DNA of 64,000 nt, from positions 1-64,000 of the forward strand of contig JASMKO010000075.1 of assembly GCA_030749225.1 (NCBI GenBank), read 5' to 3'. The stretch's first letter is position 1; each line of letters starts with the position of its first letter. The position numbers and the translations under genes are program-made. This DNA comes from Verrucomicrobiota bacterium. Lineage in GTDB: Bacteria > Verrucomicrobiota > Verrucomicrobiia > Limisphaerales > UBA1096. Below the pieces are notes generated by a model that saw nothing but the letters and a program-made list of their open reading frames with translations, was not told the origin of the DNA and did not search any database. Below are positions 1,455-58,423 of this stretch, piece by piece.

Positions 1455-1540
1455 AGCACGCGTCACGTTGTGAACAGTTCGCCGTCGATACGGTGTTGTC
1501 GGGTTGGTTCCAGTTTCGCCCCCTTGGCCAAGCGAAGTTA
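1455..1540 (-). pseudogene. Degenerate copy of the 3' end of the RibD-like reductase gene
   Basis: Reverse strand reads RLAKGAKLEPTRQHRIDGELFTT* versus RLAKVAKLELTRQCRIGGELFTTWRVRP in the intact gene; nucleotide similarity across about 77 columns to 1654-1730. Confidence 0.7.
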
Positions 1541-1541
1541 G

Positions 1542-1562
1542 GGACGGCTGTCGCAGCCGTCC
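1542..1562. repeat. Perfect 9-bp inverted repeat with 3-nt loop
   Basis: GGACGGCTG-TCG-CAGCCGTCC. Confidence 0.8.
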
Positions 1563-1634
1563 TCGACAATTCCGAAACGGCCGGCTCGGAGAACCAACCC
1601 CACCTTCGCGGCCAATTGCATTAGTGCCACAAAG

Positions 1635-3407: not shown

Positions 3408-3513
3408 GGCGGCAATCTAGTAGCCGGTTTTGGGGCCGGTTTCAATGGAGCGACTTCCGGGGCCGCAAACCGAACGGGAAACGGGCCAGTTGTGTGAATT
3501 TAGCCGACAACCG

Positions 3514-3525
3514 GCTTGGCCAAGC
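3514..3525. repeat. Intergenic GCTTGGCCAAGC palindrome
   Basis: Exact 12-mer between queA and mraZ. Confidence 0.9.
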
Positions 3526-3675: not shown

Positions 3676-3691
3676 GCCCGAGCTACCCGTT

Positions 3692-4911: not shown

Positions 4912-5834
4912 CCGAATTCATCCACGAACCGGTGCTGCTGGAGGAGGCGCTCTCGGCTCTTCAACCGGTGGCAGGCCGGCTGTATGTGGATGGGACGATC
5001 GGCGGCGGCGGACACGCGGAGGCGATTCTCGAGGCGAGCGGGCCGGATGGAAGGCTGGTGGCGTTCGATCGCGACGACCGTGCGATCGATGCCACGGTCA
5101 TGCGTCTGGCACGGTTTGGCGATCGGGTGGAACTGCACCGGGAACCGTTTTCCGGCTTGACCAAGCGCTTACTCAAGGCGAGTTGCGACGGAGTGCTGCT
5201 GGATCTCGGGGTGAGTTCGCCGCAGTTGGACGAGGCGGAGCGTGGCTTCAGCTTCCAGGCCGAGGGGCCGTTGGATATGCGGATGGATCAGAGGCAGCCG
5301 ATGACGGCGGAGCAGTTGGTGAACGAGCTCGAGGCCGAAGAGTTGGCGAAGATTTTTTGGGAACTGGGCGGCGAGCGCCGGTCGCGCCGCATCGCCCGAG
5401 CCATTGTTGAACAACGCGGCATGCAGCGACTCGAAACCACCACGCAGCTGGCCAACACCGTGGAGAGGGCCTGCCCACGGCGGGCACGCACGCACCCGGC
5501 GACAGGCGTGTTCCAGGCGCTGCGCATGGCGGTCAACGACGAACTCACCCAGGTGCGGGCCGGGCTGGAAGCCGCCTGGTCCGTGCTCAAGCCGGGCGGT
5601 CGGCTGGCGGTGATTTCGTTCCACTCCGGGGAGGATCGGCTGGTGAAACAGTTCAGCCGCCGCTTGGCCAAGCCGTATACCGTCCGCGGCGAAGTTGACG
5701 TGCCGGAATTACGCGAGCCGTGCGAGCCGTCGGCCCGTGAGTTGAACCGCAGATCGATCAAGCCGGGCGCGGCCGAGTTGGAGCGAAATCCCCGGAGTCG
5801 AAGTGCCCAGTTGCGGGCGCTGGAAAAACTGTAA
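4908..5834 (+). CDS. rsmH: 16S rRNA (cytosine1402-N4)-methyltransferase RsmH (MraW)
   Basis: FIHEPVLLEEALSALQP, DGTIGGGGHAEAIL, GVLLDLGVSSPQLDEAERGFSFQAEGPLDMRMD. Confidence 0.97.
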   Translation: MTEFIHEPVLLEEALSALQPVAGRLYVDGTIGGGGHAEAILEASGPDGRLVAFDRDDRAIDATVMRLARFGDRVELHREPFSGLTKRLLKASCDGVLLDLGVSSPQLDEAERGFSFQAEGPLDMRMDQRQPMTAEQLVNELEAEELAKIFWELGGERRSRRIARAIVEQRGMQRLETTTQLANTVERACPRRARTHPATGVFQALRMAVNDELTQVRAGLEAAWSVLKPGGRLAVISFHSGEDRLVKQFSRRLAKPYTVRGEVDVPELREPCEPSARELNRRSIKPGAAELERNPRSRSAQLRALEKL

Positions 5835-5840
5835 ACAACC

Positions 5841-8153: not shown

Positions 8154-9541
8154 TGGAACCGCGCACGCTGGGTTATGTGGAGGAGAGCTGCAATGGCCGG
8201 CTCGTCGCGGGCGAACGCTCGGCGAGTGTGCGCCGGGTCTGCACCGACTCGCGCTTGGCCAAGCCGGGTGACCTGTTTGTCGCGATCCGCGGCGACCGGT
8301 TCGATGGGCATGACTATCTGGGCGACGCGCTTGGCCGAGGGGCGGAGGCGGCCGTGGTCAGCCCGTCCCGGGTTGGCCAAGCGGAGTCAGACGGGCCAAG
8401 GATCGAGGTGGAGGAGACGCGGGAGGCGCTCGGACGGTTGGCGGCCCGGTACCGGCGGGACTTTGACCTGCCGGTTGTGGCGGTCGGCGGCTCAAACGGC
8501 AAGACTGGCACAAAGGAGATTTTGGCCTCGGTGCTGGGCCAGCGGCTCGAGACGCTTTCCAGCGAGGCCAGCTTCAACAACGATATCGGTGTGCCGCTCA
8601 CGTTACTGAGGCTGCGCGAGGTCCACGAGGCTGCGGTGCTCGAAGTCGGTTCAAACCATCCCGGCGAATTGCGGCCGCTCCTGAATCTGATCTGCCCGAG
8701 GTATGGCGTGCTGACCAGTATCGGGCGCGAGCATTTGGAGTTTTTTCAGGATGTGGACGGAGTGATCGAGGAGGAGGGGGCGCTGGCGGAGGCGCTGCCG
8801 CCGAATGGCTGCCTGTTTGTAAACGGGGACATCGACGGGCTAGAGGCTGTCCGTACCCGGTGCCGTGCGGCGGTTGTCACCGTTGGGGAGGGGGATAGCT
8901 GCGACTGGCGAATCGACGGGATTGTGCTGGACGATAAGGGAACGACTTTTGAACTGATTTCGCCGAAGGGAGATTGGAGCGGAGACTGCCGCGTCAACCT
9001 GCTGGGCCGTCATAATGCCCGGAACGCCGCGCTTGCCATGGCGGTTGCGGCGGAGTTGGGCCTGAGCCGGGAGGAACTGGACCAGGGCCTGCAGCGTTGC
9101 CAACCGGCGTCGATGCGAATGGAGATGCAGACACTCGGCGGTGTGCGCATCATCAACGACGCCTACAACTCCAACCCGGACTCCCTTCTGGCGGCTTTGG
9201 AAACGCTGGAGACGTTCCCGACTGCGGGAAAGCGCATCGCCGTTCTTGGCGATATGGCTGAGCTTGGCCAAGCCAGCGAGTCCGCCCATGAAGAGGCGGG
9301 CCAGCTTGTGGCCAGGCTTGGCTTGAGCGGTCTGGTCGCCGTGGGCCGCTGGGCAAACACGACAGTACGCGCGGCGCAGGAGGCCGGCTTGGCCAATGTA
9401 GCGGCATTCGAGGAGGCAACGGTTGCTGGCCGGGCGTTGGCCGCCAAGCTGGATTCTGGAGATGTCGCCCTTGTCAAGGGCAGCCGGGAGGCGGGAATGG
9501 AGTGCGTCATCGAGGCGTTTTCGGAGGCGATGAAAACGTAG
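8150..9541 (+). CDS. murF: UDP-N-acetylmuramoyl-tripeptide--D-alanyl-D-alanine ligase
   Basis: DSRLAKPGDLFVAIRGDRFDGHDYL, GGSNGKTGTKEILASVL, NDAYNSNPDSLLAALETL; start overlaps ftsI stop. Confidence 0.93.
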   Translation: MMEPRTLGYVEESCNGRLVAGERSASVRRVCTDSRLAKPGDLFVAIRGDRFDGHDYLGDALGRGAEAAVVSPSRVGQAESDGPRIEVEETREALGRLAARYRRDFDLPVVAVGGSNGKTGTKEILASVLGQRLETLSSEASFNNDIGVPLTLLRLREVHEAAVLEVGSNHPGELRPLLNLICPRYGVLTSIGREHLEFFQDVDGVIEEEGALAEALPPNGCLFVNGDIDGLEAVRTRCRAAVVTVGEGDSCDWRIDGIVLDDKGTTFELISPKGDWSGDCRVNLLGRHNARNAALAMAVAAELGLSREELDQGLQRCQPASMRMEMQTLGGVRIINDAYNSNPDSLLAALETLETFPTAGKRIAVLGDMAELGQASESAHEEAGQLVARLGLSGLVAVGRWANTTVRAAQEAGLANVAAFEEATVAGRALAAKLDSGDVALVKGSREAGMECVIEAFSEAMKT

Positions 9542-10718: not shown

Positions 10719-12167
10719 ATGTTAAAACTGAAGGGTAGTCGGGTGTTATTGGTCGGGCTTGGGTCGCGTGGCCGGGCGGCCTGTCGACTGCTCTGCTCCA
10801 GCGGCGCCTCGGTGGTGGCGGTGGATCGCAAGGATAACGATGCGTTGCAGCAAGAAGCTAAGCGCTTGGCCAAGCTGGGGGTGGAGGTGCACCTCGGTTT
10901 GTCCAAGCCGTTGGCCAAGCTGCTCAACGGCGTCGAGTTGGGTGTGACCAGCGTGGGCGGCATCCGCGAGACCGCTTGGATGCGCGCACTGCGCAAGGCC
11001 GATTTTCCGGTGATCGGCGAGCTCGAGTTGGGCTTCCAGTATTTGCGTTGCCTCAACATTGCCGTAACCGGCACCAACGGCAAGACTCCGGCGGCTGGGC
11101 TGATCGAGCAGGTGCTCCTCGGCGCGCAACGGGAGACCCGGCTGGCCGGCAAGGTGGAAAACCCCGTTTGCGATGCCGTGGAGGGCTCGAAGGAGCTGGA
11201 TTACCTGATCCTCGCCGTGAATTCCTTCCAGCTCGAGTTGACCCAGTTATTCAGCCCGACTGTCGCCGTAGTAACAAATCTCTCGCCAGATCACTTGGAT
11301 CATTACGGCAACATGGAGTCGTACGTGAAGGCCAAGGCGCGGATTTTCGCCAACCAGCAGCCGTTCGACTGGGCGATCATCCAGAGCGAGGCGCTGGCGC
11401 ATATCCGTTCGTTCGGCATCGAGATTCCTTCCAAGATCATCACCTTCAGCGCGAGCAACCGGCGGGCAGACATCTCGCTCGACCGTGGCCTAATCATGAG
11501 CCGCGTGTCGGGATGGGAGGGGCCGTTGATGGATTTCACCGACTGCCAGTTGCAGGGTGCGCACAACGCAGAGATTCTGATGGCGGCCTTGGCAGTGGGC
11601 CGGGTGTTCCGAATACCGCTTGAGCAGTCGGCGGAAATCCTCAGGAACCACCCGACGCTGCCGCATCGATGTGAACTGGTGGCTGAGAAAGACGGAGTGA
11701 GCTTTATTAACGACTCCCGATCCACCAATCTCGCCGCCCTTGAGAAGTCACTTTTCTCAATAAAACCAGGCCTAGGCGGACGCCCAAATATCTGGCTGCT
11801 GGCCGGCGGGCGCGACAAGGCCGCTGAGTACCACGACATCGGCCCGCTGCTTTCGCAACGAGTCAAGGCGGCGTTTTTGATGGGCGAAATCCGAGAAACC
11901 GTGCGCGCCGCGTGGAGCCTATTCACGCCTTGCCGTTTGGTGGATTCGCTGGAGGAAGCCGTCCGGCAGTGCGCGGAGATGGCCGAGGAAGGAGATGTCA
12001 TTTTGCTCTCGCCTGCGAGCGAGGATTCCGGTAGCGTCAACGGCTATCAACATCGTGGCGAGATGTTTCGACGCTCAGTCGAACGCTTGGCCGGGTCTTC
12101 AACGGAAGCTGAAAGCACCGGCAAGGGCTATTCAGCCTCAAAAACTCCCCAGGTTCTGTCGCGATGA
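10719..12167 (+). CDS. murD: UDP-N-acetylmuramoylalanine--D-glutamate ligase (divergent)
   Basis: VTGTNGKT, NSFQLELT, VTNLSPDHLDHYGNMESYVKAKARIF, FINDSRSTN, LLAGGRDK. Confidence 0.88.
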   Translation: MLKLKGSRVLLVGLGSRGRAACRLLCSSGASVVAVDRKDNDALQQEAKRLAKLGVEVHLGLSKPLAKLLNGVELGVTSVGGIRETAWMRALRKADFPVIGELELGFQYLRCLNIAVTGTNGKTPAAGLIEQVLLGAQRETRLAGKVENPVCDAVEGSKELDYLILAVNSFQLELTQLFSPTVAVVTNLSPDHLDHYGNMESYVKAKARIFANQQPFDWAIIQSEALAHIRSFGIEIPSKIITFSASNRRADISLDRGLIMSRVSGWEGPLMDFTDCQLQGAHNAEILMAALAVGRVFRIPLEQSAEILRNHPTLPHRCELVAEKDGVSFINDSRSTNLAALEKSLFSIKPGLGGRPNIWLLAGGRDKAAEYHDIGPLLSQRVKAAFLMGEIRETVRAAWSLFTPCRLVDSLEEAVRQCAEMAEEGDVILLSPASEDSGSVNGYQHRGEMFRRSVERLAGSSTEAESTGKGYSASKTPQVLSR

Positions 12168-12207: not shown

Positions 12208-12219
12208 GCTTGGCCAAGC
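12208..12219. repeat. Intergenic GCTTGGCCAAGC palindrome
   Basis: Exact 12-mer between murD and the LysM gene. Confidence 0.9.
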
Positions 12220-16278: not shown

Positions 16279-17191
16279 GTCACTCGACATTTGCGTGATG
16301 CTCGGTGGCCCGTCCGGGGAACGGGAGGTGTCGCTCCAGTCCGGCGCGGCCGTGGCGGTGGCGCTGCGAAGCCTTGGCCATCGAGTGAGTGAGATTGATC
16401 CCGTGGACGGCGAGTTCCGGCTACCGCCGGATACCGGCGTGGTGTTTCTCGCGCTGCACGGGACATACGGTGAGGATGGCACCGTGCAGTCCAAACTCGA
16501 CGCACTGGGCGTGCCGTACACCGGCTGCGGCGAGGCGGTGAGCCGGTTGGCGTTCGACAAGGTGGCGGCCAAGCGCGCCTGCGCCCAAGATGGCTTGGCC
16601 ACGGCAAACGACTGCGTGGTGGACGACCCGGGCGCTGGGCTTCCGGATGGGCTCGAATTGCCGCTGGTGCTCAAGCCGGCCTGCCAAGGCTCGAGCATCG
16701 GGCTGGAGTTTGTCAAGACTGCGGCCGCTTGGCCAAGCGGCTTGGCTAAGGCGATCGAGGGCGGCGGCCTGGTGCTGGTCGAGGAGCGGATCGACGGCCG
16801 AGAAGTCACCGTGGGCGTAGTCGGCGGCCAGCCTCTGCCGGTGGTCGAGATCACGCCGAGGCACGGTGCATACGACTACGCCAACAAATATACCGTGGGT
16901 GCAACTGAGTACGCCTGCCCGGCGCGGTTTGACCCGGAGACCACGTGCCGCATACAGCATGCTGGGGAACGGGCGCTGGCCGCCGTCGGGGGTGGCAACT
17001 GCGCCCGGGTAGATTTCATTGTGCGCCCCGACGGCGAGCCGGTATTTCTGGAGGTCAACACCCTGCCGGGGATGACGGAGACGAGCTTGCTACCCAAGGC
17101 GGCCGCGGCGACCGGCACCGGTTTTGCCGAATTGTGCCAATGGCTGCTTGAACTGGCGTTGGAAAACCCGCCCTTGGCGGCCACCGGATGA
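16268..17191 (+). CDS. ddl: D-alanine--D-alanine ligase
   Basis: MLGGPSGEREVSLQSG, HGTYGEDGTVQSKLDALGVPYTGCG, FLEVNTLPGMTETSLLPKAA. Confidence 0.96.
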   Translation: MVIESLDICVMLGGPSGEREVSLQSGAAVAVALRSLGHRVSEIDPVDGEFRLPPDTGVVFLALHGTYGEDGTVQSKLDALGVPYTGCGEAVSRLAFDKVAAKRACAQDGLATANDCVVDDPGAGLPDGLELPLVLKPACQGSSIGLEFVKTAAAWPSGLAKAIEGGGLVLVEERIDGREVTVGVVGGQPLPVVEITPRHGAYDYANKYTVGATEYACPARFDPETTCRIQHAGERALAAVGGGNCARVDFIVRPDGEPVFLEVNTLPGMTETSLLPKAAAATGTGFAELCQWLLELALENPPLAATG

Positions 17192-17203: not shown

Positions 17204-18163
17204 ATGGCATTAAGAGCGAAACAGCGGAACAGCAGGTCGGGGCGGAAAAAACTGCTTTCGGTCAGGGTACAGTCGAAGCGTGCTAGGGGCGAGCGGCTGC
17301 GTTGGCTGCGTTCGTTATCGGTGTTGGTTGCCTCGATCGCGGCGATTATCGCCGTTTTCTGGCAGGGAGGCGCCTTCACTCTCAACCGGCTCGTTTACGA
17401 AAACGACTCGTTCTCCGTCAGGCAGCTGGACTACCGGACCGACGGGATCATCAATGTCGGCCAACTCGAGCAATGGGGCGGCGTGCGCTCGGGTGACAAC
17501 CTGCTCAAGCTCGATCTGCTGCGGATCAAGCGTGACATCGAACTGGCTCCCCGCGTGAAGGCGGCCTCTGTAGAGCGGTTTCTGCCGGACATGCTGCAGG
17601 TGCGGGTCGCCGAGCGGGTGCCGATGGCGCAGATTTGGGCCTGGCAGCGCGATGCTGACGGCGTAACACCCTACGACTGTGTGAGGCTGCAACTGGACGA
17701 GACCGGCCACGTGATGAGCCCGATTGACGGCCGTTCAGTGGTGGCGCCGGAGAAACATGCTGAATGGTCGCTGCCGGTCATTTCCGGGATCGACCTAAAT
17801 AAACTCAAGACACTCGCCCCCGGCCGCCCGTCCGGGCTGCCCAAGCTGCAGGCTGCGCTTGGCCTCATCGGGGAGTTTCGCCGCTCTCCCCTTGCCGGCG
17901 TGGTCGATTTACGGGTGATCGACCTGTCCCAACCGCGTATCCTGCGAGTTACCACTGGCGACGGAGGCCAAGTAGACCTCTCGACTGGGCGCTTGGCCAA
18001 GCAGTTCAACCGCTGGGCTCGCATCCGGGCGCACGGGCAGAAGTTTGGATTGGCCATCGAGACGGTGGACCTTTCCGTGACCAACAACGTGCCGGTGCGG
18101 TGGATGCTCTCCCCGACAGTCGCCGGGGAACTCAAGAGCGGCCAAAACCTGGCTGGGAAATAA
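17204..18163 (+). CDS. ftsQ: FtsQ/DivIB-type cell division protein
   Basis: Position between ddl and ftsA; TM followed by POTRA-like LLKLDLLRIKRDIELAPRVKAASVERFLPDMLQVRVAERVPMAQI. Confidence 0.85.
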   Translation: MALRAKQRNSRSGRKKLLSVRVQSKRARGERLRWLRSLSVLVASIAAIIAVFWQGGAFTLNRLVYENDSFSVRQLDYRTDGIINVGQLEQWGGVRSGDNLLKLDLLRIKRDIELAPRVKAASVERFLPDMLQVRVAERVPMAQIWAWQRDADGVTPYDCVRLQLDETGHVMSPIDGRSVVAPEKHAEWSLPVISGIDLNKLKTLAPGRPSGLPKLQAALGLIGEFRRSPLAGVVDLRVIDLSQPRILRVTTGDGGQVDLSTGRLAKQFNRWARIRAHGQKFGLAIETVDLSVTNNVPVRWMLSPTVAGELKSGQNLAGK

Positions 18164-20751: not shown

Positions 20752-20763
20752 GCTTGGCCAAGC
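20752..20763. repeat. Intergenic GCTTGGCCAAGC palindrome just after ftsZ stop
   Basis: Exact 12-mer. Confidence 0.9.
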
Positions 20764-42977: not shown

Positions 42978-43874
42978 TTAACCGGCCAGCGAGGTGAGGA
43001 TTGCCTTCTGCGTGTGCAGCCGGTTTTCGGCCTGTGTGAAGATGGTGTCGGCGTGAGTCTCGAAGGTTTCCTCGTCGATCTCCTTGCCGCGGTAGGCGGG
43101 AAGGCAGTGCATGACGAGAGCGTCCGGCTTGGCCAAGCGCATCAACTCGCCGTTGATCTGGTAACCGGCGAGCTTGGCCAAGCGGGCCTCCGCTTCGGCC
43201 TCCATGCCCATCGACACCCAGACGTCGGTGTAGACCATGTCCGTCTGGTCGACGGCGGCCTGGATGTCCTCGGTGCAGGTGATGTTACCGCCAACTTTGG
43301 CCAAGGTCTCCGCGCTTGGCTGAAACTCCCCCGGGGCGGCAATGCGCAATTCGAAGTCCAGCGCCGCCGCCGCGTGCACCCACGAGAGAGGCACGTTGCA
43401 CGCGCCGTCGCCGACGTACGTGACCACGTTGCCTGAGATCGGGCCGCGCCGTTCCTGAAAGGTGAAAATGTCGGTGAGGATCTGGCACGGATGTTCCTCG
43501 TCGGTCAGTGCGTTGATGGTTGGAATACCCGAGTAATCAGCGAATTCCTCGACGTCCGCCTGCGCGTAGGTACGGATGATTGCGCCGTGAACCATCCGGC
43601 CCAGCACGCGCGCGGTGTCCTTGATCGGTTCGCCGCGGCCCAGTTGCATATCATTCGCGTTTAGGAACATCACCGAGCCGCCAAGTTCGCGGATGCCGAC
43701 CTCGAATGATACCCGCGTGCGCGTCGATGACTTGGTGAAGATCATCGCCCATGTCTGGCCGTCAAGCGGCTTGGCTTCGCCGCCTCCGCGCTTGGCCTTG
43801 ATGGCTTTCGCCGAGGTGAGGATTTCCTCCATCGCCGCACCGGGCATGCCGTTGAGTTTCAAGAGATGTTTCAT
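42978..43874 (-). CDS. argF: Ornithine carbamoyltransferase
   Basis: FTKSSTRTRVSFEVGIRELGG, DEEHPCQILTDIFTFQE, VMHCLPAYRGKEI. Confidence 0.97.
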   Translation of the reverse strand: MKHLLKLNGMPGAAMEEILTSAKAIKAKRGGGEAKPLDGQTWAMIFTKSSTRTRVSFEVGIRELGGSVMFLNANDMQLGRGEPIKDTARVLGRMVHGAIIRTYAQADVEEFADYSGIPTINALTDEEHPCQILTDIFTFQERRGPISGNVVTYVGDGACNVPLSWVHAAAALDFELRIAAPGEFQPSAETLAKVGGNITCTEDIQAAVDQTDMVYTDVWVSMGMEAEAEARLAKLAGYQINGELMRLAKPDALVMHCLPAYRGKEIDEETFETHADTIFTQAENRLHTQKAILTSLAG

Positions 43875-45106
43875 GCGATTATTTTTTGGATGGTTTGTTC
43901 AAACAAATCGAGACCGGCCTGGGCTTCCTCCCGCGTCAGGTTGAGTGGCGGCAAAAAACGGACGACCGACGAGCCGGCCGGGATGGTCAGCATCCCCGCC
44001 TCGTGCAAGGCCGACACCCACTGCAGAGCCGTCGGTTTGCCGTCGTCGAAGGAGCTAAAGCCTCCTCCCATCTCGATGCCGATCATCAGGCCAAGCCCGC
44101 GAATCTCAAGGATGGCCGCCGAATATTTCTCCCGCAGCTTGGCCAGTTCATTGACGAAAAAGTGGCCAAGCGCCGTCGCATTGGCGGCGAGGTCATCGCG
44201 GTCGACCACCTCTAGAATCTTATTTGCCACAGCGCACGCCAGCGGGTTGCCTCCAAACGTCGAGCCGTGTGTTCCCGGGCCAAGCACTTCGGCGTGCGGC
44301 TCCGCGATCCACACCGCCCCCATTGGGAACCCTCCCCCAAGCGCCTTGGCCATGCCGATGGCATCCGGCAAAAAGTCGCCGAGTTGGTCGCCAAGGATCG
44401 ACTGAAAGCTCTGGAAGGAGCCGGTGCGAAAATGCCCGCACTGCACGCCGTCCCACAGCAGGAGCAGATTGTGCTCGTCGCACAACCGCCGCAGTCCAAG
44501 CATCATGTCCGCCGACACCGGCCGGATGCCACCTTCGCCCTGCACGCCCTCAATCATCACTGCCACCGTGGCGGGGGTGAGGGCGGCATGCACCGCATCG
44601 AGGTCGTTAAACGGCACATGCGAGAAACCCGGAAGCAGGGGAGCGAACCCGTCCTTGATTTTCCCTTGGCCGGTCGCGGAGATACCGGCCATCGTCCGGC
44701 CGTGAAACGAGTTTTCAGCTGTGATGATTTCGAACCGACCCTCCGCCTGGCCATAGTGCCGGGCCAGCTTGATCATCACCTCGGACGACTCCCCGCCGCT
44801 GTTGCAGAAAAACACGCGCCCTTGGCCAAGCCGCTTGGCCAAGTTTTCGGCCAACTGCGCCTGGCCTTCGAAGTGGTAGAAATTGGTGCAGTGCATCAGG
44901 CGGCTCGACTGATCGGCGAGCACTTGGCTGATCTCCGGATGGGCGTGGCCGAGGCAGTTCACCGCGATCCCGCCGCCGAGGTCGAGGTAACGCTTGCCAT
45001 CAGTATTCCAGACGTATGCGCCTTCACCGCGATCCAGCGTGATCGGGAACCGCCCGTAGGTCGGGGCCACGAACCGCCTGAAGCGATCCTTAATTTCTTG
45101 GCTCAT
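43871..45106 (-). CDS. argD: Acetylornithine aminotransferase
   Basis: YVWNTDGKRYLDLGGGIAVNCLGHAHPE, FFCNSGGESSEVMIKLAR, SFHGRTMAGISATGQ; typical active-site Lys region (GMAKALGGGFPMGAV). Confidence 0.97.
   Translation of the reverse strand: MSQEIKDRFRRFVAPTYGRFPITLDRGEGAYVWNTDGKRYLDLGGGIAVNCLGHAHPEISQVLADQSSRLMHCTNFYHFEGQAQLAENLAKRLGQGRVFFCNSGGESSEVMIKLARHYGQAEGRFEIITAENSFHGRTMAGISATGQGKIKDGFAPLLPGFSHVPFNDLDAVHAALTPATVAVMIEGVQGEGGIRPVSADMMLGLRRLCDEHNLLLLWDGVQCGHFRTGSFQSFQSILGDQLGDFLPDAIGMAKALGGGFPMGAVWIAEPHAEVLGPGTHGSTFGGNPLACAVANKILEVVDRDDLAANATALGHFFVNELAKLREKYSAAILEIRGLGLMIGIEMGGGFSSFDDGKPTALQWVSALHEAGMLTIPAGSSVVRFLPPLNLTREEAQAGLDLFEQTIQKIIA
44821..44843. repeat. Two palindrome units separated by 1 nt (CTTGGCCAAGCCGCTTGGCCAAG)
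   Basis: Direct reading; inside argD. Confidence 0.9.
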
Positions 45107-47307: not shown

Positions 47308-48372
47308 TCAAATGGGCAGGCCGGCGGTTTCATCGAAGCCAAACCGGATGTTGAACGACTGTACGGCTTGTCCACCGGCACCCTTAACGAGGTTGTCCTC
47401 AGCGCTGAAGAGTCGCAATCGCTTGGTTCGCGGATCGGCAGCCCAGCCGACTTCGATGGAGTTGGTGCCGGTCACGTTTTTCGTGTCGGGCAATCGCTCG
47501 TTGCCGGTGATGCGGACGAACGGTTCATCGGCGTAGCGCTTGGCCAAGCAATCGGCCACCGAGTCCGTCCATTGTTCAAAATCGTCCACTTGGCCAGGCG
47601 CTGGCGCGAGGTAGAGAGTGGTCAGGATGCCGCGGTTCACCGGGACGAGATGCGGCGTGAACTGCACCGCTACGGGTGAGCCGTTCGCCAAGCCGAGTTC
47701 CTGCTCAATCTCCGAGAGATGCCGATGCTTGGGCACGCCGTACGGCCGCATGCTCTCGTTGCACTCGACGTATAGGAAGGGCAGGGAGGCGTTACGCCCA
47801 GCCCCACTGACGCCGCTAAGTGAGTCAGCGATGATCTGCGCGGGATCGATCAGCCCAGCTTCCAGCAATGGGATAAGCGGCAGCAGGATGCTGGTCGGGT
47901 AACAGCCGGGAGAGGCGATGAGTGTGGCACTGGCGATAGCGTCGCGGCGAACCTCCGGCAAGCCGTAGACCGCCTTGTTTAACCACTCCGGCGCGGGGTG
48001 GTCTGCCCCGTAGAATTCTTGGTAAAGTTCGGCATCGTTTAGCCGAAAGTCGGCGCTGAGGTCGATCACCGTTACGCCCCGCTCGGCTAGCGGCACGGCG
48101 AATTCCGCCGCAACCCCGTGGGGCAGGGCGAGGAATACGGCGTCGGCCTTCTCGGCGAGCCGGTCGATCGACGGATCGGAGAAGGTCAGTTCTGCCGCGC
48201 CGTCGTAACCGGCAAAGCGCGGAAAAACAGAGGTTATCGGCTGCCCAGCGTACTGGCGTGAGGTCAGCACCGACAGGTTGACGTACGGATGCCCGAGAAG
48301 CAGCCGGACCAGTTCTTCCCCAGAATAACCGGATGCTCCGACGATTGCTACGTTGTTTTTTGTCCATGACAT
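47308..48372 (-). CDS. argC: N-acetyl-gamma-glutamyl-phosphate reductase
   Basis: VAIVGASGYSGEELVRLLLGHP, AVFLALPHGVAAEF, SPGCYPTSILLPLIPLL, GVSGAGRNA; start refined to MSWTKNN. Confidence 0.96.
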   Translation of the reverse strand: MSWTKNNVAIVGASGYSGEELVRLLLGHPYVNLSVLTSRQYAGQPITSVFPRFAGYDGAAELTFSDPSIDRLAEKADAVFLALPHGVAAEFAVPLAERGVTVIDLSADFRLNDAELYQEFYGADHPAPEWLNKAVYGLPEVRRDAIASATLIASPGCYPTSILLPLIPLLEAGLIDPAQIIADSLSGVSGAGRNASLPFLYVECNESMRPYGVPKHRHLSEIEQELGLANGSPVAVQFTPHLVPVNRGILTTLYLAPAPGQVDDFEQWTDSVADCLAKRYADEPFVRITGNERLPDTKNVTGTNSIEVGWAADPRTKRLRLFSAEDNLVKGAGGQAVQSFNIRFGFDETAGLPI

Positions 48373-48430
48373 GATAGTTAAACGATTCCGACCGCGCTTG
48401 GCCAAGGTTGCTTGAGGTGACGGTATCTGA

Positions 48431-49517: not shown

Positions 49518-50777
49518 TTGAGCATCCAACCGTTAAAAACAGGGCGTCGGCTTTTTTTGCAGATCCTTTCGGCCCTCGTAGTGACGCCGTACCGGGCGTT
49601 GGCCAAGCGCTTGGCCAAGGGGCCGATGGTTTACCTGACCTGGCGCTACGACCCGGCATCGACTGTCGTGGTTAACTGGATGGACGGTGACGCGCGCAGC
49701 AACGATTATGTGATGTACCGCCCCTTTGTCTTGCCAGTCGGGAGTCGTTGGACGATGGCCCGTGGTTTTAAGCATCTCTTTGCTGACCAGAAGAAACGGA
49801 TCGTTCACCACGTTGAACTGCGGGGGTTGCAGCCCGACACGGAGTATGTCTTCACGATCCGCTCGGAGACGCCAGCCCGCGGTGGACAATACTTCAAGTT
49901 TCGTACTCTACCGCGCACGCTCCCGGACAACTTCCGATTTGTGACCGGCGGAGACATGATGCACAAACGCAAATACCTCGACGCGATGAACCAGCGCGCG
50001 GCGCAGCTCAACCCGTGGTTTGCGTTGCTTGGCGGCGACCTGGCTTACGCCAACGCCAGTTCAAAGGAGGTGGCCAAGTGGGACGAGTGGCTGGAGTCAT
50101 GGATGCTCAACAGCGTGCGCCGGTCGGACGGCTGCCTGATCCCGATGGTCGTGGCGATTGGCAACCACGAGGTCGATGGTGGCACCGGAAAAAAGCCGAA
50201 AGACGCGAAATATTTTTACAGCCTATTTCCTCTCCCGGCCAAGCGCAGTTTTTATGCGATGGATTTTGGCAACTATTTGAGTTTGATTGTACTCGACTCC
50301 GATCACACCGAACGGGTGGAAGGGGAACAGACAAAATGGCTGGGCCAGACCTTGGTCAAGCGTGCGGGTCGGGTGCCGCTTATCTATCCGTGTTACCACA
50401 AGGCCGCCTATGGCACGGCCAAGCCGCCTAGCGGCACCAACGATTCCTCCAAGGATCCGCTGGCGCAGAGGATCATCAAACATTGGTGTCCGTTGTTCGA
50501 GAAGTATCGTGTCACGGCCGTGTTCGAGAATGATCATCACACCTACAAACGCACGCATCCGCTGCGCGCGAACCGGATTGACAAGGAAACCGGCATCCTC
50601 TACCTCGGCGACGGCTGCTGGGGAGTCGATACCCGCTCGGTGCCCAAGCCAGGCGAGTTGTGGTATTTGGCCAAGGCGGCGAGCAAGCGGCACTTGATTT
50701 GTGTCACGATTCGAGATGGAAAACCGTCCTATGCTGCCTACGAGGCGGACGGGAAAGTGATTGATCAGCACGGCTAA
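49518..50777 (+). CDS. Purple acid phosphatase-like metallophosphoesterase with twin-arginine-like signal
   Basis: GRRLFLQILSAL signal; VTGGDMMHKRKYLD, FALLGGDLAYANAS, VVAIGNHEVDGG, VFENDHHTYKRTHP. Confidence 0.88.
   Translation: MSIQPLKTGRRLFLQILSALVVTPYRALAKRLAKGPMVYLTWRYDPASTVVVNWMDGDARSNDYVMYRPFVLPVGSRWTMARGFKHLFADQKKRIVHHVELRGLQPDTEYVFTIRSETPARGGQYFKFRTLPRTLPDNFRFVTGGDMMHKRKYLDAMNQRAAQLNPWFALLGGDLAYANASSKEVAKWDEWLESWMLNSVRRSDGCLIPMVVAIGNHEVDGGTGKKPKDAKYFYSLFPLPAKRSFYAMDFGNYLSLIVLDSDHTERVEGEQTKWLGQTLVKRAGRVPLIYPCYHKAAYGTAKPPSGTNDSSKDPLAQRIIKHWCPLFEKYRVTAVFENDHHTYKRTHPLRANRIDKETGILYLGDGCWGVDTRSVPKPGELWYLAKAASKRHLICVTIRDGKPSYAAYEADGKVIDQHG
49599..49618. repeat. 20-bp perfect palindrome made of two fused units, TTGGCCAAGCGCTTGGCCAA
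   Basis: Equal to its own reverse complement. Confidence 0.92.
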
Positions 50778-51028: not shown

Positions 51029-54000
51029 ATGAGAATGAAACCGTTTGTGCTGGCGGCGCTGGTGGCTGTGGGGTGCGTCGGGGCACGGGCCGAAACGCTA
51101 TTCGAGATCGGGGCCAAGTGGCGTTACTACAAGGGCAACGACCACCCCTCCGGCGGTGACCTGGAGTGGGCCGAGTCGGACTACGACGACAGCGATTGGC
51201 CAAGCGGTGACACGCCGATCCGGTACGGCGACGGCGACGGCGGCACGGTGCTTGAAGACATGCGAAACCGATACTCGACAGTCTTTTTCCGCCGCACATT
51301 CACCGTGGCGAAAGCCGCGGAGGTTGCCGAGTTGGAGTTGCTGGTGAATTACGACGACGGGTTTGTAGTCTGGATCAACGGCGAGGAGGTGCTGGATGTC
51401 GGCGGCGCGGCCGACCTGTCGCACGACTCGTTCGCGACCCTGAGCCATGAGTCCGGCAACTTCGAGACGTTCGCCCTGGCCAATCCCGCGCGGTATCTCG
51501 TCGACGGCAATAACCTGATTGCGGTCATGGGGTTCAATGTCAACCTCACCAGCAGCGACTTCATGATGGATGCCGAGTTGCGGAGTTACCGCCCGGACAA
51601 GTCGCCGCCGACGGTGGCGTCGATCGCCCCCCCGCCCGGTAATGTCAGCCTGCTGCGCGAGGTCTCGATTCGGTTTAACGAGGAGGTCACCGGGGTGGAT
51701 GCCGACGACCTTTGGCTCAACGGCGACCCGGCCGTGGAGTTGCGCGGTGGCAAAACCAGGTGGACCTTTACATTCGCGCCGGGCGATTTTGGCGAGGCCA
51801 CGTTGTCGTGGAACCCGGCTCACGGCATCGCTGACACGGCGAGGCCACCCAACCTAATGGATGCCGCCACGGCTGCGGCGACACACCGATACCGGATTGT
51901 CGACGATATGCCGCCGACGATGGCCAACGTTCTGCCGCCGCCGGGCAGCACGGTGCGTGGGCTGAGCCGCGTGCGCCTGTTTTTCAGCGAACCGATCCGC
52001 GGCCTTGAGGCGGCGGATCTACGGGTGAACGGCCGGGCGCCGTCATCGATTGCCGGTGTGGCCGGTGGGCCATGGCAGATTGAATTTCCCCCGGCCGACA
52101 ACGGCCTTGTGACGATCGCCTGGGTGCCGGACCACGGCGTGACCGACATGGCAACGGAGCCAAACCGGCTCACGGCGGAGGAGTGGCACTACAACGTCGA
52201 TGCCAAGCACGACTTTGGGCAGGTGGTGATTAATGAACTTCTCGCGGCCAACCGCGATGGTCTGAAGGATGAGGAGGGCCAGATTGGCGATTGGATCGAG
52301 CTACGAAATACGGGGAACACCACCGTGAATCTTGACGGATGGTCGCTGAGCGATGAAGCCGTCAAGCCGGGTAAATGGGTGTTCCCCGCTGTGACACTCC
52401 GGCCAGGCGCTACTTTGGTCGTGCATGCCACCGGCAAGAATCGCCGTGCGCTTGGCCAAGCGCTGCACACGAATTTCAAGCTTGGCGTCGAGGGCGAATA
52501 CCTTGGCCTGTTCAGCCCTGAACTGCCGCGCCGGGTCGCCGACGAGATCGCGCCAGCGTACCCCGAGCAGCGCGGCGACATTTCGTATGGGCGCTTGGCC
52601 AAGGGCGGGTGGGCCTGGTTCGAGACACCAACGCCGGGCACGGGCAACCGCGGCACGACGATTCAAGGGCTGCTTGCGCCGCCGAAGTTCAGCGCGGAGC
52701 GGGGCGTTTACGATGCGCAATTCCGGGTGCATCTAACCACCGACGAGCCCGGATCGGTGATCCGCTACACGACCGACTATTCCGAGCCAACGGCAATTCG
52801 GGGCAAGGTTTATTCCGGGCCGATTCCAGTTAGGCGAACGACTGTGGTGCGCGCGGCGGTGTTCAAGGCCGGCATGCTGCCGTCGCGCGTGATGACGCAC
52901 ACGTATGCCTATAATCTCAGCAAGGGGGTGACGTCGCTGCCGATGATGTCACTGGTCACGGAGAATTCCAACCTACGCGGTAATACCGGCATTATGGAGA
53001 CAAATCCTCGAAACACGACCAAGCGAGGCATCGCATGGGAGCGGCCTGTCTCGATGGAGCTGATTTATCCTGAAACCGGAGAAACATTGCAGGCTAACGC
53101 CGGTCTGCGTGTGCAGGGCGGCAACTACATTCGAGGGCGCTACAACCCGAACTCAGGACCGCCAGCTGGCAAGTACTCCTTCCGTTTGTACTTTCGCGGT
53201 GACTATGGTCCAGGGAGGCTGCGGTATCCGTTTTTCCCAGGTTTGCAGGTGCAGGATTTCAACCACATCGTGCTGCGTGCCGGGATGAACGACCACTCTA
53301 ATCCATTCGTTGTCGACGAGTTGGTGCGGCGTCTCTCTGCAGACATGGGGCAGGTTTCTGCGCGTGGCACCTTCATGAATCTGTACCTCAACGGAAAAAA
53401 TAAGGGCTACTACAACCCAACCGAACGCATTGACAGAGATTTTCTGAATTCGTGGAATGGTAGTGACTCGGAATGGGACATTATAGCGCAGTTCGGCGAA
53501 CTGCGAGAAGGCGACACCGTGAAGTGGAACGAGCTCAAGGCCGCCTTGCTGAAGAATCTCTCCGTGCCGCAAAACTATGCGGCGGTAGAGCGCCTGCTCG
53601 ATGTCAACAATTTCATCGACTACATCATGCTCAACGTGTACGCAAATACTGGCGATTGGCCGCATAACAACTGGCGTGCCGCGCGCGAACGCGTGCCCGG
53701 CGCGAAATGGCGCTTCATCGTATGGGACGCTGAGTGGTCGTTTGGGAACAACGGCCGTAGCGTTACTGGAAACAACCTAACCAGTGGACCGCTGGCTGGC
53801 GATTCGGACATCGCACGTTTTTACCGTTCATTGCAGAAAAACCCCGAGTTCCGCATGCGCTTCGCCGATCGAGTGCAGATCCACTATTTCAACGGCGGCG
53901 CCTTGACCGATGAGAACGTGCTGAGCCGCTTTCGCGAAATGAAGGAGGAAATGTCCGGCGTGATCCGAAACATGAACACGACCGTAGAGAGCACCTGGGT

Positions 54001-57000
54001 GCCGCGCCGCCGGGCCATCGTCATGAGCCAGATGGCGACGCAGAAAATTCAGGCGTCCGATAACGCACCACAATTCAGCCAGGATGGCGGTGCGGTCCCG
54101 GCCGGCTACAACCTCAAGCTAACGGCGCCAGAGGGTGAGATTTACTACACGCTCAATGGCACCGACCCGCGCCGTCCGGGGGAGGTGGCCGAGACCGGCA
54201 AAACCATCCTCGCCGGTGACGCCGAAAAATGGGCGCTGGTGCCATCCGCGGACAACGGTGGCAATGCGCTGGGCAATAAATGGCGAGGCGGGTCGGAGCC
54301 GTTCGACCACGACGATTGGGACTCCGGTAATGATGGCGTCGGCTACGACCAGAACGCTGACTACGATCCGCACATCGGCCTCGACGTGGACGCCGAGATG
54401 AACGACATCAACCAGTCGGTGTTTGTGCGCATCCCGTTCAGGGTGTCGGCAGCGGAACGGAAAAAGTCCAACTTTATGGTGCTCCACATGAAGTACGACG
54501 ACGGCTTCGTCGCCTACCTCAATGGCACCCGCATCGCCAGCGCCAATGCCGCGTCCAACCCGGCCTGGAACGCCGGCGCGACCGGTCAGCACGACGATGC
54601 CTCGGCGGTGACATGGGTCAGTTTTGATGCCGGTAAGCAGATCAACAAGCTGAAGACTGGGAACAATATACTTGCCATACACGGCCTTAATTCTGGCCTG
54701 GGTAGCTCCGACATGCTTATCAACGCTGAGTTGTCGCTTGGCCAGCGCACTGGTGCCGAGATTGCTGATGGCGTGCTCAAGTACAACTCGCCGATCCGAC
54801 TCTCAGCGGACGCTATGATCCGCACCCGCACGATGCACAACGGCCAATGGAGCGCGTTGGTCGGGCATTCGTTTCAGGCCGGGCGTGCCGGGTCACCATT
54901 GCGTTTCACCGAGATCATGTACAACCCACCCGGCGGCAGCGAGTACGAGTTTGTCGAACTGCACAACAGCGGCAGTTTTGACGTCTCGCTGGGGTGGCAC
55001 CGTTTCGATGGCATCGACTTCACATTCCCTGGTGACGCCGTTATCGGCCCGGGCGAGTACCTCGTGTTGGCGTCTGATAACGATCCCGATGCGTTTAAGC
55101 TGCGCTATCCTGGCTTGGCCGTGAACGGATGGTACCGGGGTAGTCTGTCGAACAATGGCGAACGACTGGCTCTTCTTGACGTGCGTTGGCGGCGGGTGCT
55201 CGAGGTGGACTATAGCGACAGTGGCGCTTGGCCAAGCTCTGCTGACGGCGACGGCCATTCGCTCGAGTTGATCGACCTGCTCGCCGACCCCGGCGCGGCA
55301 TCGAACTGGCGGGACAGCGCAGCCAAGGCCGGCTCGCCTGGAGAAGCCGGCACGGCAGTCGACCCACCGATGGTCGTGATTAACGAAGTGCATGTGCAGT
55401 CACCGCTTTCACGTGATCCGGATTTTGTCGAGCTACGAAACCTTGGCCAAGCGGCGGTCGATCTCTCCGGCTGGACGCTGCACGACGGTGACGGCAACAC
55501 GTTTGAATTCCCCGACGGCACGGTGCTTGGCGAGGCGGGGCTGCTTGGCGTCTGGTGCGGCGACGGCGGGGGCGACGGCTTGCGCGCCGGATTTGGGCTT
55601 GGCCAAGCGGGCGACTCGGTGGCGTTGTTCGCTGCAGATGATCATCGGATTGATGCCGTGACGTTCGGCGCGATCGGCGGGTCGATTGTCCGTACGGCCA
55701 ACGGCTGGACAACGGCCAAGCCGACATTCGGTCAACCGAATCAACCTGTTCAACCGACACCCATGACCAAACTCGTCATCAATGAGTGGCTTGCTGACCC
55801 GGGTGAGGGCGGGCGCGACTGGCTGGAGTTGTACAATCCGGACGCCAAGGCCCCGGCGCTCATCTCCGGCCTTCACATTCGGGTGGACCAGCAGGTTGGC
55901 GGTCTGCATGTTATTGCGACCATCCCGCCGCGTGGCCACAGGCGCATCTGGCTTGATACTCGTTCCGGCCAGGGTCACGTCGACCTGTCACTACCGGCCG
56001 ACGGCGCCACACTCACGCTCATCACGCCGGAAGGCGTTGAGTTCGCAACCATGGATTACAAAAAGCAGCGAACCGGCGTGTCAGAAGGTCGCCAGCCCGA
56101 TGGAAGCAGCCGGACGGCGAAGTTCACCCGGGGCGCAACGCCCGGAGCGCCGAACATCATCCCTTCCTACAACGGTCCACGATTCAACGAGGTGCTGGCG
56201 TACAACCGGCAGGGCGTGTCCGACTGGGTTGAGTTGCACAATGACACCGGATCAACCGTCTCTCTGGACGGCGCCAGCCTGTCTCGGCGATCCGATGGTA
56301 TGGGCGACTGGATGTTCCCTGCTGGCACAACGATACGGAAAGGTGGGTATCTGGTGGTGCGGTTTGATGGGAGCCAACCGGCCGGGGATGACAATACTGG
56401 CGATTCACTCCCGGCAGAGGGCGGCGGCGTCTACCTGTTCGATCCCGACGGCTTTCTCGCACACTCAATCGAGTATGGCTTTCAGGTGGCCGACCAGCCG
56501 ATCGGCATGAGCGGGGGCCGTTGGAAGTTGCTGACTATCTCGACACCCGGCAAGGCGAACGCCGCCGCGGTTGCGATGGGCAACCCGCTTAATGTCGTCT
56601 TCAACGAGTGGATGGCAAAACCAGTTTTGGGTGCGGATTGGTTTGAGTTGTTCAACCCCGAAACCAAGCCGGTGGATCTCGGTGGCATGACCCTCTCTGA
56701 CGACCCCACGGCAGTGGGGCGCGACAAGTTCACCATCCCGGACCTCTCGTTCATTCGGGCGCGGGGATGGGTTAGGTGGCTGGCAGATAGCGCGTCCGGG
56801 CCGGGTCACGTGAATTTCAGTTTGCGTGGCCAGGGTGAGTTGCTGCGGCTCTATGGGAGTCAGCGCACTGCGGTCGATGATGTCGAGATTTTCAACGCTG
56901 CTGAAGGTGTATCCCGAGGTCGGCTGCCGGATGGCGCGGAGGCACTCAAGGACTTTCCGTTTACCCCGACGCCGGGTGGCGGCAACTATCTGCCCATTGC

Positions 57001-58423
57001 GGAAATTGTCATCAATGAGGTGTTGTCACACACCGACGCACCGCTCGAGGACGCCATCGAGTTATACAACACCGGCGACTTAACGGTGGACATTAGCGGC
57101 TGGCGGCTGGGCGATGTGTTCGATTCACCCACACACTATGTCATCCCCGATGGAATAACCCTTTCGCCGGGCGGTTACACGGTGATTTACGAGGGTGATT
57201 TTAGCCGGGCCGGCAACGGCTTTAGTCTCAACTCCGCACATGGCGACACAATTCACCTTGTGGCGGTCGATGAGGATGGCAAGCCAAGTGGCCTCCGTGC
57301 CGTGCAGCCGATCCCACCCATGGCCAACGGCGTCTCCGTCGGCCGCGTGACGATCAATTCAGTCACGCAGTTTGTGCCGTTGGCGAGACGCACATTTGGT
57401 GTCGATGCACCTGAATCGGTGGCGGCTTTCCGCGAGGGAACAGGTGGACTCAATACCGGACCGCTGGTCGGTCCAGTTGTCATCAGCGAAATCATGTACG
57501 AGGGCCAGCCGGAAGTTGCCGGCCTTGGGCAGGGTCAGCTCGAGTTTGTCGAGTTGCACAACTTTAGCGACCAATCCGTGCCGTTGTTTAATCCGCTTGA
57601 GCCGCAGAATACATGGCGACTGCGAGGGGGCGTGCGATTGGATATCTCGCTGGAAACGATCTTGTCGCCCGGTGGATATCTGTTGCTCACCGGTTTTGAT
57701 CCCGCTGCCGAGCCGGCAGTGGCGTCGCGGTTCCGCTCGCATTACGGTGTGCCGGATGGCGTGTCGATCATCGGGCCGTTTGACGGTCGCCTGGCCAACG
57801 ACGGCGAGACGGTGCGGTTGCTCCGGCCTGACAACACGCAAGGTCTTGGTCACGATGATGCCGGGTTTGTCCCATACCTGCCGGTGGAATCATTGTCATA
57901 TGACAACCGCGAACCTTGGCCAAGCGATGCCGACGGCACCGGACTTTCGATACAGCGCAAGGCGATTGAGAGGTTTGGTGACGATCCTGCCAACTGGCTT
58001 GCTGCTGCGCCCACCGCCGGCTGGACCAACGCCAGCTCCGAAGCCGGTGACCGCGATGCCGACGGCATGGACGACGCTTGGGAACTGGCGCACAAATTGG
58101 ATCCCGCCAACGCCGCCGACGCGGCCGCTGATGCCGATAACGACGGAGTGACCAACCTTGGTGAATTTTTGAGCGGAACCGATCCGAAGGATGCCAATAG
58201 CCGGTTCCTCATCGAGTCGATTGAAGTGCTGGAGGGAAGAGTGACGATTGCTGTGTACGTATCACCAAGTCGGCGGTATTCCATTGAATTTGCCGATGTG
58301 TTGGGCGGCGGTTGGAGCAAACTGGTCGAATTTACAACAGAAACCGACCAGCGCTTGGCCAAGGTCGAGAGCAACGCCCCGCTTGGCCAGTCCCGTTTCT
58401 ATCGAATCCGTTTGGTGGAGTAA
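51029..58423 (+). CDS. Giant secreted CotH-kinase / lamin-tail-domain multidomain protein
   Basis: Signal MRMKPFVLAALVAVGCVGARA; Ig-like repeats; chitobiase-C-like (GSVIRYTTDYSEPT); CotH (GKNKGYYNPTERIDRDFL...GDWPHNNWRAARE...WRFIVWDAEWSFG); about eight LTD units (e.g. LVINEWLADPGEGGRDWLELYNP); C-terminal DRDADGMDDAWELAHKLDP...DADNDGVTNLGEFLSGTDP. Confidence 0.92.
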   Translation: MRMKPFVLAALVAVGCVGARAETLFEIGAKWRYYKGNDHPSGGDLEWAESDYDDSDWPSGDTPIRYGDGDGGTVLEDMRNRYSTVFFRRTFTVAKAAEVAELELLVNYDDGFVVWINGEEVLDVGGAADLSHDSFATLSHESGNFETFALANPARYLVDGNNLIAVMGFNVNLTSSDFMMDAELRSYRPDKSPPTVASIAPPPGNVSLLREVSIRFNEEVTGVDADDLWLNGDPAVELRGGKTRWTFTFAPGDFGEATLSWNPAHGIADTARPPNLMDAATAAATHRYRIVDDMPPTMANVLPPPGSTVRGLSRVRLFFSEPIRGLEAADLRVNGRAPSSIAGVAGGPWQIEFPPADNGLVTIAWVPDHGVTDMATEPNRLTAEEWHYNVDAKHDFGQVVINELLAANRDGLKDEEGQIGDWIELRNTGNTTVNLDGWSLSDEAVKPGKWVFPAVTLRPGATLVVHATGKNRRALGQALHTNFKLGVEGEYLGLFSPELPRRVADEIAPAYPEQRGDISYGRLAKGGWAWFETPTPGTGNRGTTIQGLLAPPKFSAERGVYDAQFRVHLTTDEPGSVIRYTTDYSEPTAIRGKVYSGPIPVRRTTVVRAAVFKAGMLPSRVMTHTYAYNLSKGVTSLPMMSLVTENSNLRGNTGIMETNPRNTTKRGIAWERPVSMELIYPETGETLQANAGLRVQGGNYIRGRYNPNSGPPAGKYSFRLYFRGDYGPGRLRYPFFPGLQVQDFNHIVLRAGMNDHSNPFVVDELVRRLSADMGQVSARGTFMNLYLNGKNKGYYNPTERIDRDFLNSWNGSDSEWDIIAQFGELREGDTVKWNELKAALLKNLSVPQNYAAVERLLDVNNFIDYIMLNVYANTGDWPHNNWRAARERVPGAKWRFIVWDAEWSFGNNGRSVTGNNLTSGPLAGDSDIARFYRSLQKNPEFRMRFADRVQIHYFNGGALTDENVLSRFREMKEEMSGVIRNMNTTVESTWVPRRRAIVMSQMATQKIQASDNAPQFSQDGGAVPAGYNLKLTAPEGEIYYTLNGTDPRRPGEVAETGKTILAGDAEKWALVPSADNGGNALGNKWRGGSEPFDHDDWDSGNDGVGYDQNADYDPHIGLDVDAEMNDINQSVFVRIPFRVSAAERKKSNFMVLHMKYDDGFVAYLNGTRIASANAASNPAWNAGATGQHDDASAVTWVSFDAGKQINKLKTGNNILAIHGLNSGLGSSDMLINAELSLGQRTGAEIADGVLKYNSPIRLSADAMIRTRTMHNGQWSALVGHSFQAGRAGSPLRFTEIMYNPPGGSEYEFVELHNSGSFDVSLGWHRFDGIDFTFPGDAVIGPGEYLVLASDNDPDAFKLRYPGLAVNGWYRGSLSNNGERLALLDVRWRRVLEVDYSDSGAWPSSADGDGHSLELIDLLADPGAASNWRDSAAKAGSPGEAGTAVDPPMVVINEVHVQSPLSRDPDFVELRNLGQAAVDLSGWTLHDGDGNTFEFPDGTVLGEAGLLGVWCGDGGGDGLRAGFGLGQAGDSVALFAADDHRIDAVTFGAIGGSIVRTANGWTTAKPTFGQPNQPVQPTPMTKLVINEWLADPGEGGRDWLELYNPDAKAPALISGLHIRVDQQVGGLHVIATIPPRGHRRIWLDTRSGQGHVDLSLPADGATLTLITPEGVEFATMDYKKQRTGVSEGRQPDGSSRTAKFTRGATPGAPNIIPSYNGPRFNEVLAYNRQGVSDWVELHNDTGSTVSLDGASLSRRSDGMGDWMFPAGTTIRKGGYLVVRFDGSQPAGDDNTGDSLPAEGGGVYLFDPDGFLAHSIEYGFQVADQPIGMSGGRWKLLTISTPGKANAAAVAMGNPLNVVFNEWMAKPVLGADWFELFNPETKPVDLGGMTLSDDPTAVGRDKFTIPDLSFIRARGWVRWLADSASGPGHVNFSLRGQGELLRLYGSQRTAVDDVEIFNAAEGVSRGRLPDGAEALKDFPFTPTPGGGNYLPIAEIVINEVLSHTDAPLEDAIELYNTGDLTVDISGWRLGDVFDSPTHYVIPDGITLSPGGYTVIYEGDFSRAGNGFSLNSAHGDTIHLVAVDEDGKPSGLRAVQPIPPMANGVSVGRVTINSVTQFVPLARRTFGVDAPESVAAFREGTGGLNTGPLVGPVVISEIMYEGQPEVAGLGQGQLEFVELHNFSDQSVPLFNPLEPQNTWRLRGGVRLDISLETILSPGGYLLLTGFDPAAEPAVASRFRSHYGVPDGVSIIGPFDGRLANDGETVRLLRPDNTQGLGHDDAGFVPYLPVESLSYDNREPWPSDADGTGLSIQRKAIERFGDDPANWLAAAPTAGWTNASSEAGDRDADGMDDAWELAHKLDPANAADAAADADNDGVTNLGEFLSGTDPKDANSRFLIESIEVLEGRVTIAVYVSPSRRYSIEFADVLGGGWSKLVEFTTETDQRLAKVESNAPLGQSRFYRIRLVE

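Follow-up and report, generated by a model that had tools for sequence, protein, structure and literature searches.

An iterated, helically phased palindrome in a genus of marine Verrucomicrobiota and its possible role as a DNA-uptake signal

Results

The palindrome and its surroundings in the window

The DNA analysed here (the window) is a 64,000-nt stretch of a Verrucomicrobiota draft genome, and copies of a single palindrome are dispersed through it (Table 1). The 12-mer GCTTGGCCAAGC occurs in 27 exact copies compared to 0.01 expected, a number reached in none of 100 dinucleotide shuffles; for the 10-bp core CTTGGCCAAG, 43 copies were counted where the shuffles predict 0.06. A preliminary description had located the 27 12-mers and two 16-bp palindromes GCGCTTGGCCAAGCGC (at 25143 and 52448) by eye, and every one of these was recovered. 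The excess also persisted in a Markov-corrected count, which had been named beforehand as the refuting test: relative to an order-3 model applied to both strands of the window, the 12-mer GCTTGGCCAAGC was enriched approximately 500-fold and the 10-mer CTTGGCCAAG approximately 90-fold. Sites were found in genes as well as in intergenic DNA, in agreement with the same description; in counts that reach beyond the window, with open reading frames called by a simple script, 426 sites were coding compared to 447 expected, which points to a modest intergenic enrichment, and 58 were intergenic.

Several other features lie in the window. At 1519–1566, a copy of the core precedes the hairpin AGGGACGGCTGTCGCAGCCGTCC, and this stretch of about 45 bp, which matches many places in three genomes of the genus (G003, G016 and G004), is perhaps a separate interspersed repeat. 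The protein encoded at 20951–21631 joins a DksA/TraR zinc finger to a long N-terminal tail that is rich in lysine and alanine and resembles H1, and the product of the adjoining gene (21804–22052) resembles ribosomal protein S18, as judged by eye only. The product of the gene at 51029–58423, 2464 residues long, contains a CotH kinase domain in addition to eight lamin-tail domains. The last core in Table 1 is followed by 5.6 kb (58364–64000) holding no further copy, with a lower GC content (0.46–0.56) and internal repeats at 60078–60475; this part of the window may be recently acquired DNA.

Table 1. Positions of the palindrome in the 64,000-nt window.
Feature	Position	Remark
core CTTGGCCAAG	1523–1532	
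core CTTGGCCAAG	1719–1728	
12-mer GCTTGGCCAAGC	1967–1978	
12-mer GCTTGGCCAAGC	3514–3525	
12-mer GCTTGGCCAAGC	5662–5673	
12-mer GCTTGGCCAAGC	8253–8264	
12-mer GCTTGGCCAAGC	9262–9273	
12-mer GCTTGGCCAAGC	10864–10875	
12-mer GCTTGGCCAAGC	12208–12219	
12-mer GCTTGGCCAAGC	16727–16738	
12-mer GCTTGGCCAAGC	17991–18002	
core CTTGGCCAAG	18272–18281	
12-mer GCTTGGCCAAGC	19586–19597	
12-mer GCTTGGCCAAGC	20752–20763	
core CTTGGCCAAG	21250–21259	
12-mer GCTTGGCCAAGC	22136–22147	
12-mer GCTTGGCCAAGC	24894–24905	
16-bp form GCGCTTGGCCAAGCGC	25143–25158	
12-mer GCTTGGCCAAGC	28723–28734	
core CTTGGCCAAG	29003–29012	
12-mer GCTTGGCCAAGC	29247–29258	
core CTTGGCCAAG	29837–29846	
core CTTGGCCAAG	33113–33122	
12-mer GCTTGGCCAAGC	33237–33248	
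12-mer GCTTGGCCAAGC	33538–33549	
12-mer GCTTGGCCAAGC	35563–35574	
12-mer GCTTGGCCAAGC	39497–39508	
core CTTGGCCAAG	41140–41149	next site 31 bp (3 turns) away
12-mer GCTTGGCCAAGC	41170–41181	
12-mer	43127–43138	next site 45 bp away
12-mer GCTTGGCCAAGC	43172–43183	
core CTTGGCCAAG	44821–44830	member of 13-bp tandem pair
core CTTGGCCAAG	44834–44843	member of 13-bp tandem pair
12-mer GCTTGGCCAAGC	47538–47549	
core CTTGGCCAAG	48397–48406	
core CTTGGCCAAG	49610–49619	
16-bp form GCGCTTGGCCAAGCGC	52448–52463	
core CTTGGCCAAG	52594–52603	
12-mer GCTTGGCCAAGC	55226–55237	
core CTTGGCCAAG	55442–55451	
12-mer GCTTGGCCAAGC	55597–55608	
core CTTGGCCAAG	57915–57924	
core CTTGGCCAAG	58354–58363	

Abundance and distribution

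In the source draft genome (3.08 Mb), the 12-mer GCTTGGCCAAGC was counted 738 times and the 10-mer CTTGGCCAAG 1520 times, compared to 0 and 5 times for control words, that of the 12-mer being of reversed order. The motif is characteristic of a single genus of marine Verrucomicrobiota. In the comparison with related genomes that the preliminary description had proposed, the core was in excess in all 21 genomes of the genus that were analysed, all of them draft MAGs, with 41 (15/Mb) to 3274 copies (818/Mb) per genome, a top density of 828/Mb, and roughly 650–3300 copies spread throughout each dense genome. Among 227 order-mates from about 61 other families, core counts (0–57) were similar to those of the control word except in family f24 (genera g67 and g86), where 7–53 copies compared to 0–5 of the control word lie slightly above the other families and possibly reflect a weak related system. 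The named records containing the 14-mer are mainly marine Verrucomicrobiota MAGs, with one Pedosphaera sp.

The density of the motif climbs with GC content across the genus, and the motif is enriched over the Markov model at every GC level, a weak core excess persisting in the low-GC genomes. Three genomes (G001, G019 and G005) have a GC content of about 0.41, and the rest of the genus about 0.60. A substitute palindrome in the low-density genomes was considered and rejected, as only a weak excess of TTGGCCAA/TTRGCYAA was seen; in G001, TTAGCTAA is in weak excess alongside TTGGCCAA. The word is also found in a marine phage, the 13670-bp viral contig L168 (IMGVR_UViG_3300032087_002358), which encodes a terminase and DnaB. 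In this contig, TTGGCCAA is present 8 times, where 0.96 copies would be expected, and 4 full cores are distributed over its length; it is possible that it belongs to a phage of the motif-bearing genus that carries the word of its host.

Consensus, conservation and cost to proteins

The consensus of 350 sites is sCGCTTGGCCAAGCGs, a palindrome that extends with graded strength over about 16 bp: moving outwards from the core, the favoured bases are G (0.75), C (0.64) and S (0.87). Among one-mismatch changes, those in the two outermost positions of each half-site were best tolerated, and such graded edges would be more typical of a site bound by a protein than of one used for restriction or methylation.

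The copies are maintained by evolution in the dense clade. In pairwise alignments, the core positions were 0.89–0.97 identical compared to 0.75–0.89 for the flanks, giving a sharp 10-bp footprint, and 300 of 460 motif copies (65%) were intact between species, compared to 25% of same-composition 10-mers; one-mismatch copies were intact in 23% of cases. Between G000 and G016, for example, at 74% identity, 15 of 24 copies were intact, compared to 14% of flanking 10-mers. In G020, conservation of the motif is gone (16% compared to 10%). The word also reshapes proteins: RLAK, LGQA and AWPS, which correspond to its three reading frames, reach 9.9, 11.6 and 22.6 times the dipeptide-based expectation in the dense genomes, and 1.8, 1.9 and 3.8 times in the sparse low-GC genomes, the last value being a single occurrence of AWPS. 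LGQA is still 11-fold over expectation in the proteins of G020 while the DNA words fade, and this excess is a fossil of the former motif density.

Spacing and helical phasing

Spacing was analysed in sequence samples of 60–420 kb per genome, and the phasing described here was seen in the genomes of the genus, the close pairs in the 64-kb window being too few. The edge-corrected pair correlation was 6.3 at 10–16 bp, 2.6 at 25–60 bp, approximately 1.9 at 60–150 bp and 1.5 at 150–200 bp, dropped to 0.52–0.72 at 300–1200 bp and returned to 1.0–1.1 past 1.2 kb; a second computation gave similar values. The motif is thus clustered below about 250 bp, where its copies are helically phased, and, since separations of 300–1000 bp are depleted, clusters recur approximately every 1.7 kb (mean 1.7 kb, CV 0.66 compared to 0.80 under random placement).

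Intervals of 25–200 bp peak at about 31, 42, 52, 62, 84, 94, 104, 114, 124 and 135 bp. The nearest-neighbour interval spectrum of G008 and G010 had its only peak at 10.4 bp (power 32), with a power of 3.8 at 3 bp and 9.1 at 10.8 bp. The phase was near 0: same-face pairs numbered 82, sideways pairs 44 and opposite-face pairs 22, where about 49 each were expected (p=2e-9). As related genomes are partly pseudo-replicates, G008 and G010 were also tested alone, and the phasing was present in each. It held in every mod-3 class and for pairs in which one or both sites were intergenic, the weaker one-mismatch copies were likewise phased, and the effect was already strongest at 31–60 bp and faded past 200–300 bp. 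The same spectrum computed for 64 unrelated 6-mers gave no phasing (maximum power 4.7, median 0.75), and HIP1 in the HIP1-dense cyanobacterium G040, measured identically, gave a power of 1.7 and no clustering. Protein-level periodicity can be rejected as the source of the phasing, given the peak at 10.4 rather than at the 10.8 bp of an alpha-helix, its presence in all mod-3 classes and in intergenic pairs, and its absence from the unrelated 6-mers. Conservation of in-phase pairs did not clearly exceed that of isolated sites; pairs on opposite faces were rare (10 of 159) and less conserved (3 of 10), though these numbers are small.

Phasing that is strongest at distances too short for easy looping is better explained by adjacent binding on the same helix face than by looping. 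Such same-face binding would equally be produced by receptors fixed at a surface or by a cooperative nucleoid protein.

Competence genes and motif density

Two competence genes, ComEC (PF03772) and DprA (PF02481), were picked after the phasing had been found and were the sole two tried. Of the 21 genomes, 9 had a ComEC hit and 12 a DprA hit. Both were undetected in the six genomes of lowest motif density (G001, G019, G005, G020, G009 and G002; 15–323/Mb), while at least one of them was found in 13 of the remaining 15, the two exceptions being 67% and 70% complete. In these two, G010 (705/Mb) and G018 (581/Mb), neither gene was found, plausibly owing to draft incompleteness. The association with density was significant (Fisher p=0.0005, Mann-Whitney p=0.004) when the genomes were treated as independent, which they are not, and the chance of obtaining the pattern through incompleteness alone is approximately 5e-8 if genes are missed independently. 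The control gene argJ was found in five of the six lowest-density genomes, and the absence of ComEC and DprA is therefore not explained by drafts that are incomplete in general.

On the argJ tree, on which G005 was left unplaced, the low-density genomes fall in three places: G001 and G019 stand apart, G020 lies inside the dense clade, and G002 groups with G009. Two or three independent losses underlie the association, the number being two if G001 and G019 were ancestrally without competence. G020, though nested within the high-density clade, has its word down to 133/Mb. Lineages without competence genes have a GC content of 0.40–0.42, with 0.51 in G020, which could stem from less recombination with GC-biased conversion; this explanation fails for G002 and G009, whose GC content is as high as in the rest of the genus although ComEC and DprA were undetected. 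Two diverged argJ copies (C2 and C26) in the MAG G015 suggest that it holds mixed strains.

Discussion

Enrichment, maintenance, phasing, spacing, restriction to a genus, repeated decay and association with ComEC and DprA are the observations to be explained. As the copy number is lower where uptake genes were not found, the motif is most likely a tag for taking up the cell's own kind of DNA, that is, a self-recognition signal for natural transformation in this genus, a reading in which uptake and receptor are inferred and which we hold about as probable as not. A putative dimeric receptor at the cell surface or in the periplasm would bind sCGCTTGGCCAAGCGs, site-bearing DNA would be preferentially taken up and recombined, and the word would so be spread and preserved genome-wide by molecular drive. 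About one cluster per 1–2 kb would suffice to tag a fragment, and extra sites within about 200 bp would add avidity only when facing the same side of the helix, a requirement that would arise from receptors fixed in an array and reading the DNA from one side. Once competence is lost, the word would be expected to decay. Somewhat more tentatively, its spread and decay along competent and non-competent lineages may, as part of the same reading, track the shifts in genome GC and leave fossil peptides behind. Several points count against an uptake signal: the known uptake words are not palindromes, the association with competence genes comes from draft genomes and few losses, ComEC and DprA were both undetected in the dense G010 and G018, the GC content of G002 and G009 is as high as in the rest, the word in the phage contig L168 is explained at least as easily by an intracellular role, and a weak core excess is found in the low-GC genomes.

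The strongest competitor, less probable though a serious candidate, is an abundant homodimeric nucleoid-associated protein that binds the sites inside the cell, its dimers cooperating on one helix face within about 200 bp to form regular nucleation clusters that organise the chromosome, with selection keeping the sites. Footprint, palindrome and phasing together make up a protein-binding signature, and the graded consensus, the excess of distances below 250 bp together with the deficit at 300–1000 bp, the phasing that extends to one-mismatch copies and the phage contig would all suit such a protein. It does not, however, predict the ComEC/DprA association or the repeated decay of the word without evident harm, and the depletion at 300–1000 bp requires an extra assumption. 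Inspection of the small basic ORFs gave no clear candidate binder, and that of the DksA/TraR-like protein no reason to name it as one. Of the options in the preliminary description, the site of a binding protein and a counterpart of the DUS/USS uptake words both fit the data, and it is the distribution of the competence genes that tips the balance to the latter.

The remaining explanations are far less probable. A methyltransferase acting on an inner word (GGCC or TGGCCA), combined with methylation-directed repair, could make and keep the palindrome, as in the Elhai model for the origin of HIP1 (PMC4390886); both words lie within the core, and an iterated palindrome is the HIP hallmark, but a methylation site does not predict graded flanks or phasing, HIP1 itself shows no phasing or clustering, and the cytosine and N4/N6 methyltransferase families searched do not match the motif distribution. 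The search in the 21 genomes covered PF00145 (1 of 21), PF01555 (0 of 21) and PF02384 (3 of 21 at borderline score), and lends no support to the methyltransferase link suggested earlier. An equally improbable source is a functionless, GC-linked mutational or repair-context bias. Although motif density goes up with GC, conservation far above that of same-composition words, the protein-level excess and Markov-model enrichment at all GC levels speak against it, and phasing between independent sites largely refutes it. Least probable of all is a mobile or interspersed repeat copied around the genome. Some copies do lie within longer local repeats, such as that at 1519–1566 of the window, but the flanks share almost no sequence past about 3 bp and the copies carry substitutions between species, many at wobble positions, which refutes this origin for the bulk of the copies.

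If the uptake reading is correct, the independent case in Verrucomicrobiota would be a natural experiment on the molecular-drive model, with decaying words and fossil peptides. Should the nucleoid protein prove right instead, thousands of phased, evenly spaced sites would amount to a chromatin code of bacteria that can be read from the sequence. In both cases, phasing between separate copies offers a simple test for HIP1, USS, DUS and other iterated words.

Comparison with known systems

The preliminary description had called the motif HIP1-like with a different sequence, and had matched the word to neither HIP1 nor the known uptake words, which is upheld. The motif shares with HIP1 (GCGATCGC) of cyanobacteria the character of a highly iterated palindrome in genes and intergenic DNA, so that part of the label stands; its clustering and phasing are absent from HIP1, as seen in G040. 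HIP1 accompanies orphan methyltransferases, while none among the families searched tracks the motif in this genus. The sites of parS, SlmA, Noc and MatP are palindromes of 12–16 bp bound by dimers, and occur in tens of regionally biased copies. The present motif differs from these in its far larger copy number in dense genomes, its spread throughout the genome and its helical phasing.

To our knowledge, self-specific DNA uptake is known in two families only, both proteobacterial. In the literature available, the sole paper naming both DNA uptake sequences and Verrucomicrobia was a review of horizontal-transfer detection in metagenomes. The motif may represent a third, independently evolved uptake-signal system, which would be the first with a palindromic word and the first found outside Proteobacteria, with phased clusters and a predicted dimeric receptor array, a proposal to which we give slightly less than even credence. 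The USS of Pasteurellaceae and the DUS of Neisseriaceae are likewise words of 9–12 bp at near one per kb, the density here being about one per 1.2–1.4 kb; they occur in genes and intergenic DNA, form clade-restricted dialects, are kept against mutation and reshape the encoded peptides. Their spacing is significantly even (PMC1939737), as is that of the motif, and the segments of the USS lie approximately one helical turn apart (PMC1626085). In line with what is expected of USS and DUS hosts, the motif is tied to the presence of ComEC and DprA, as judged from draft genomes and two or three losses. Being exact, even, clade-specific, protein-altering and lost where uptake genes were not found, it behaves like the uptake words of these families. 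It differs from them in its perfect palindromic form with graded 16-bp symmetry, in its helically phased clusters of copies, in having a host outside Proteobacteria and in that uptake is here deduced from genomes; the non-palindromic form of the known words is a trait of the USS and DUS cases rather than a requirement in principle.
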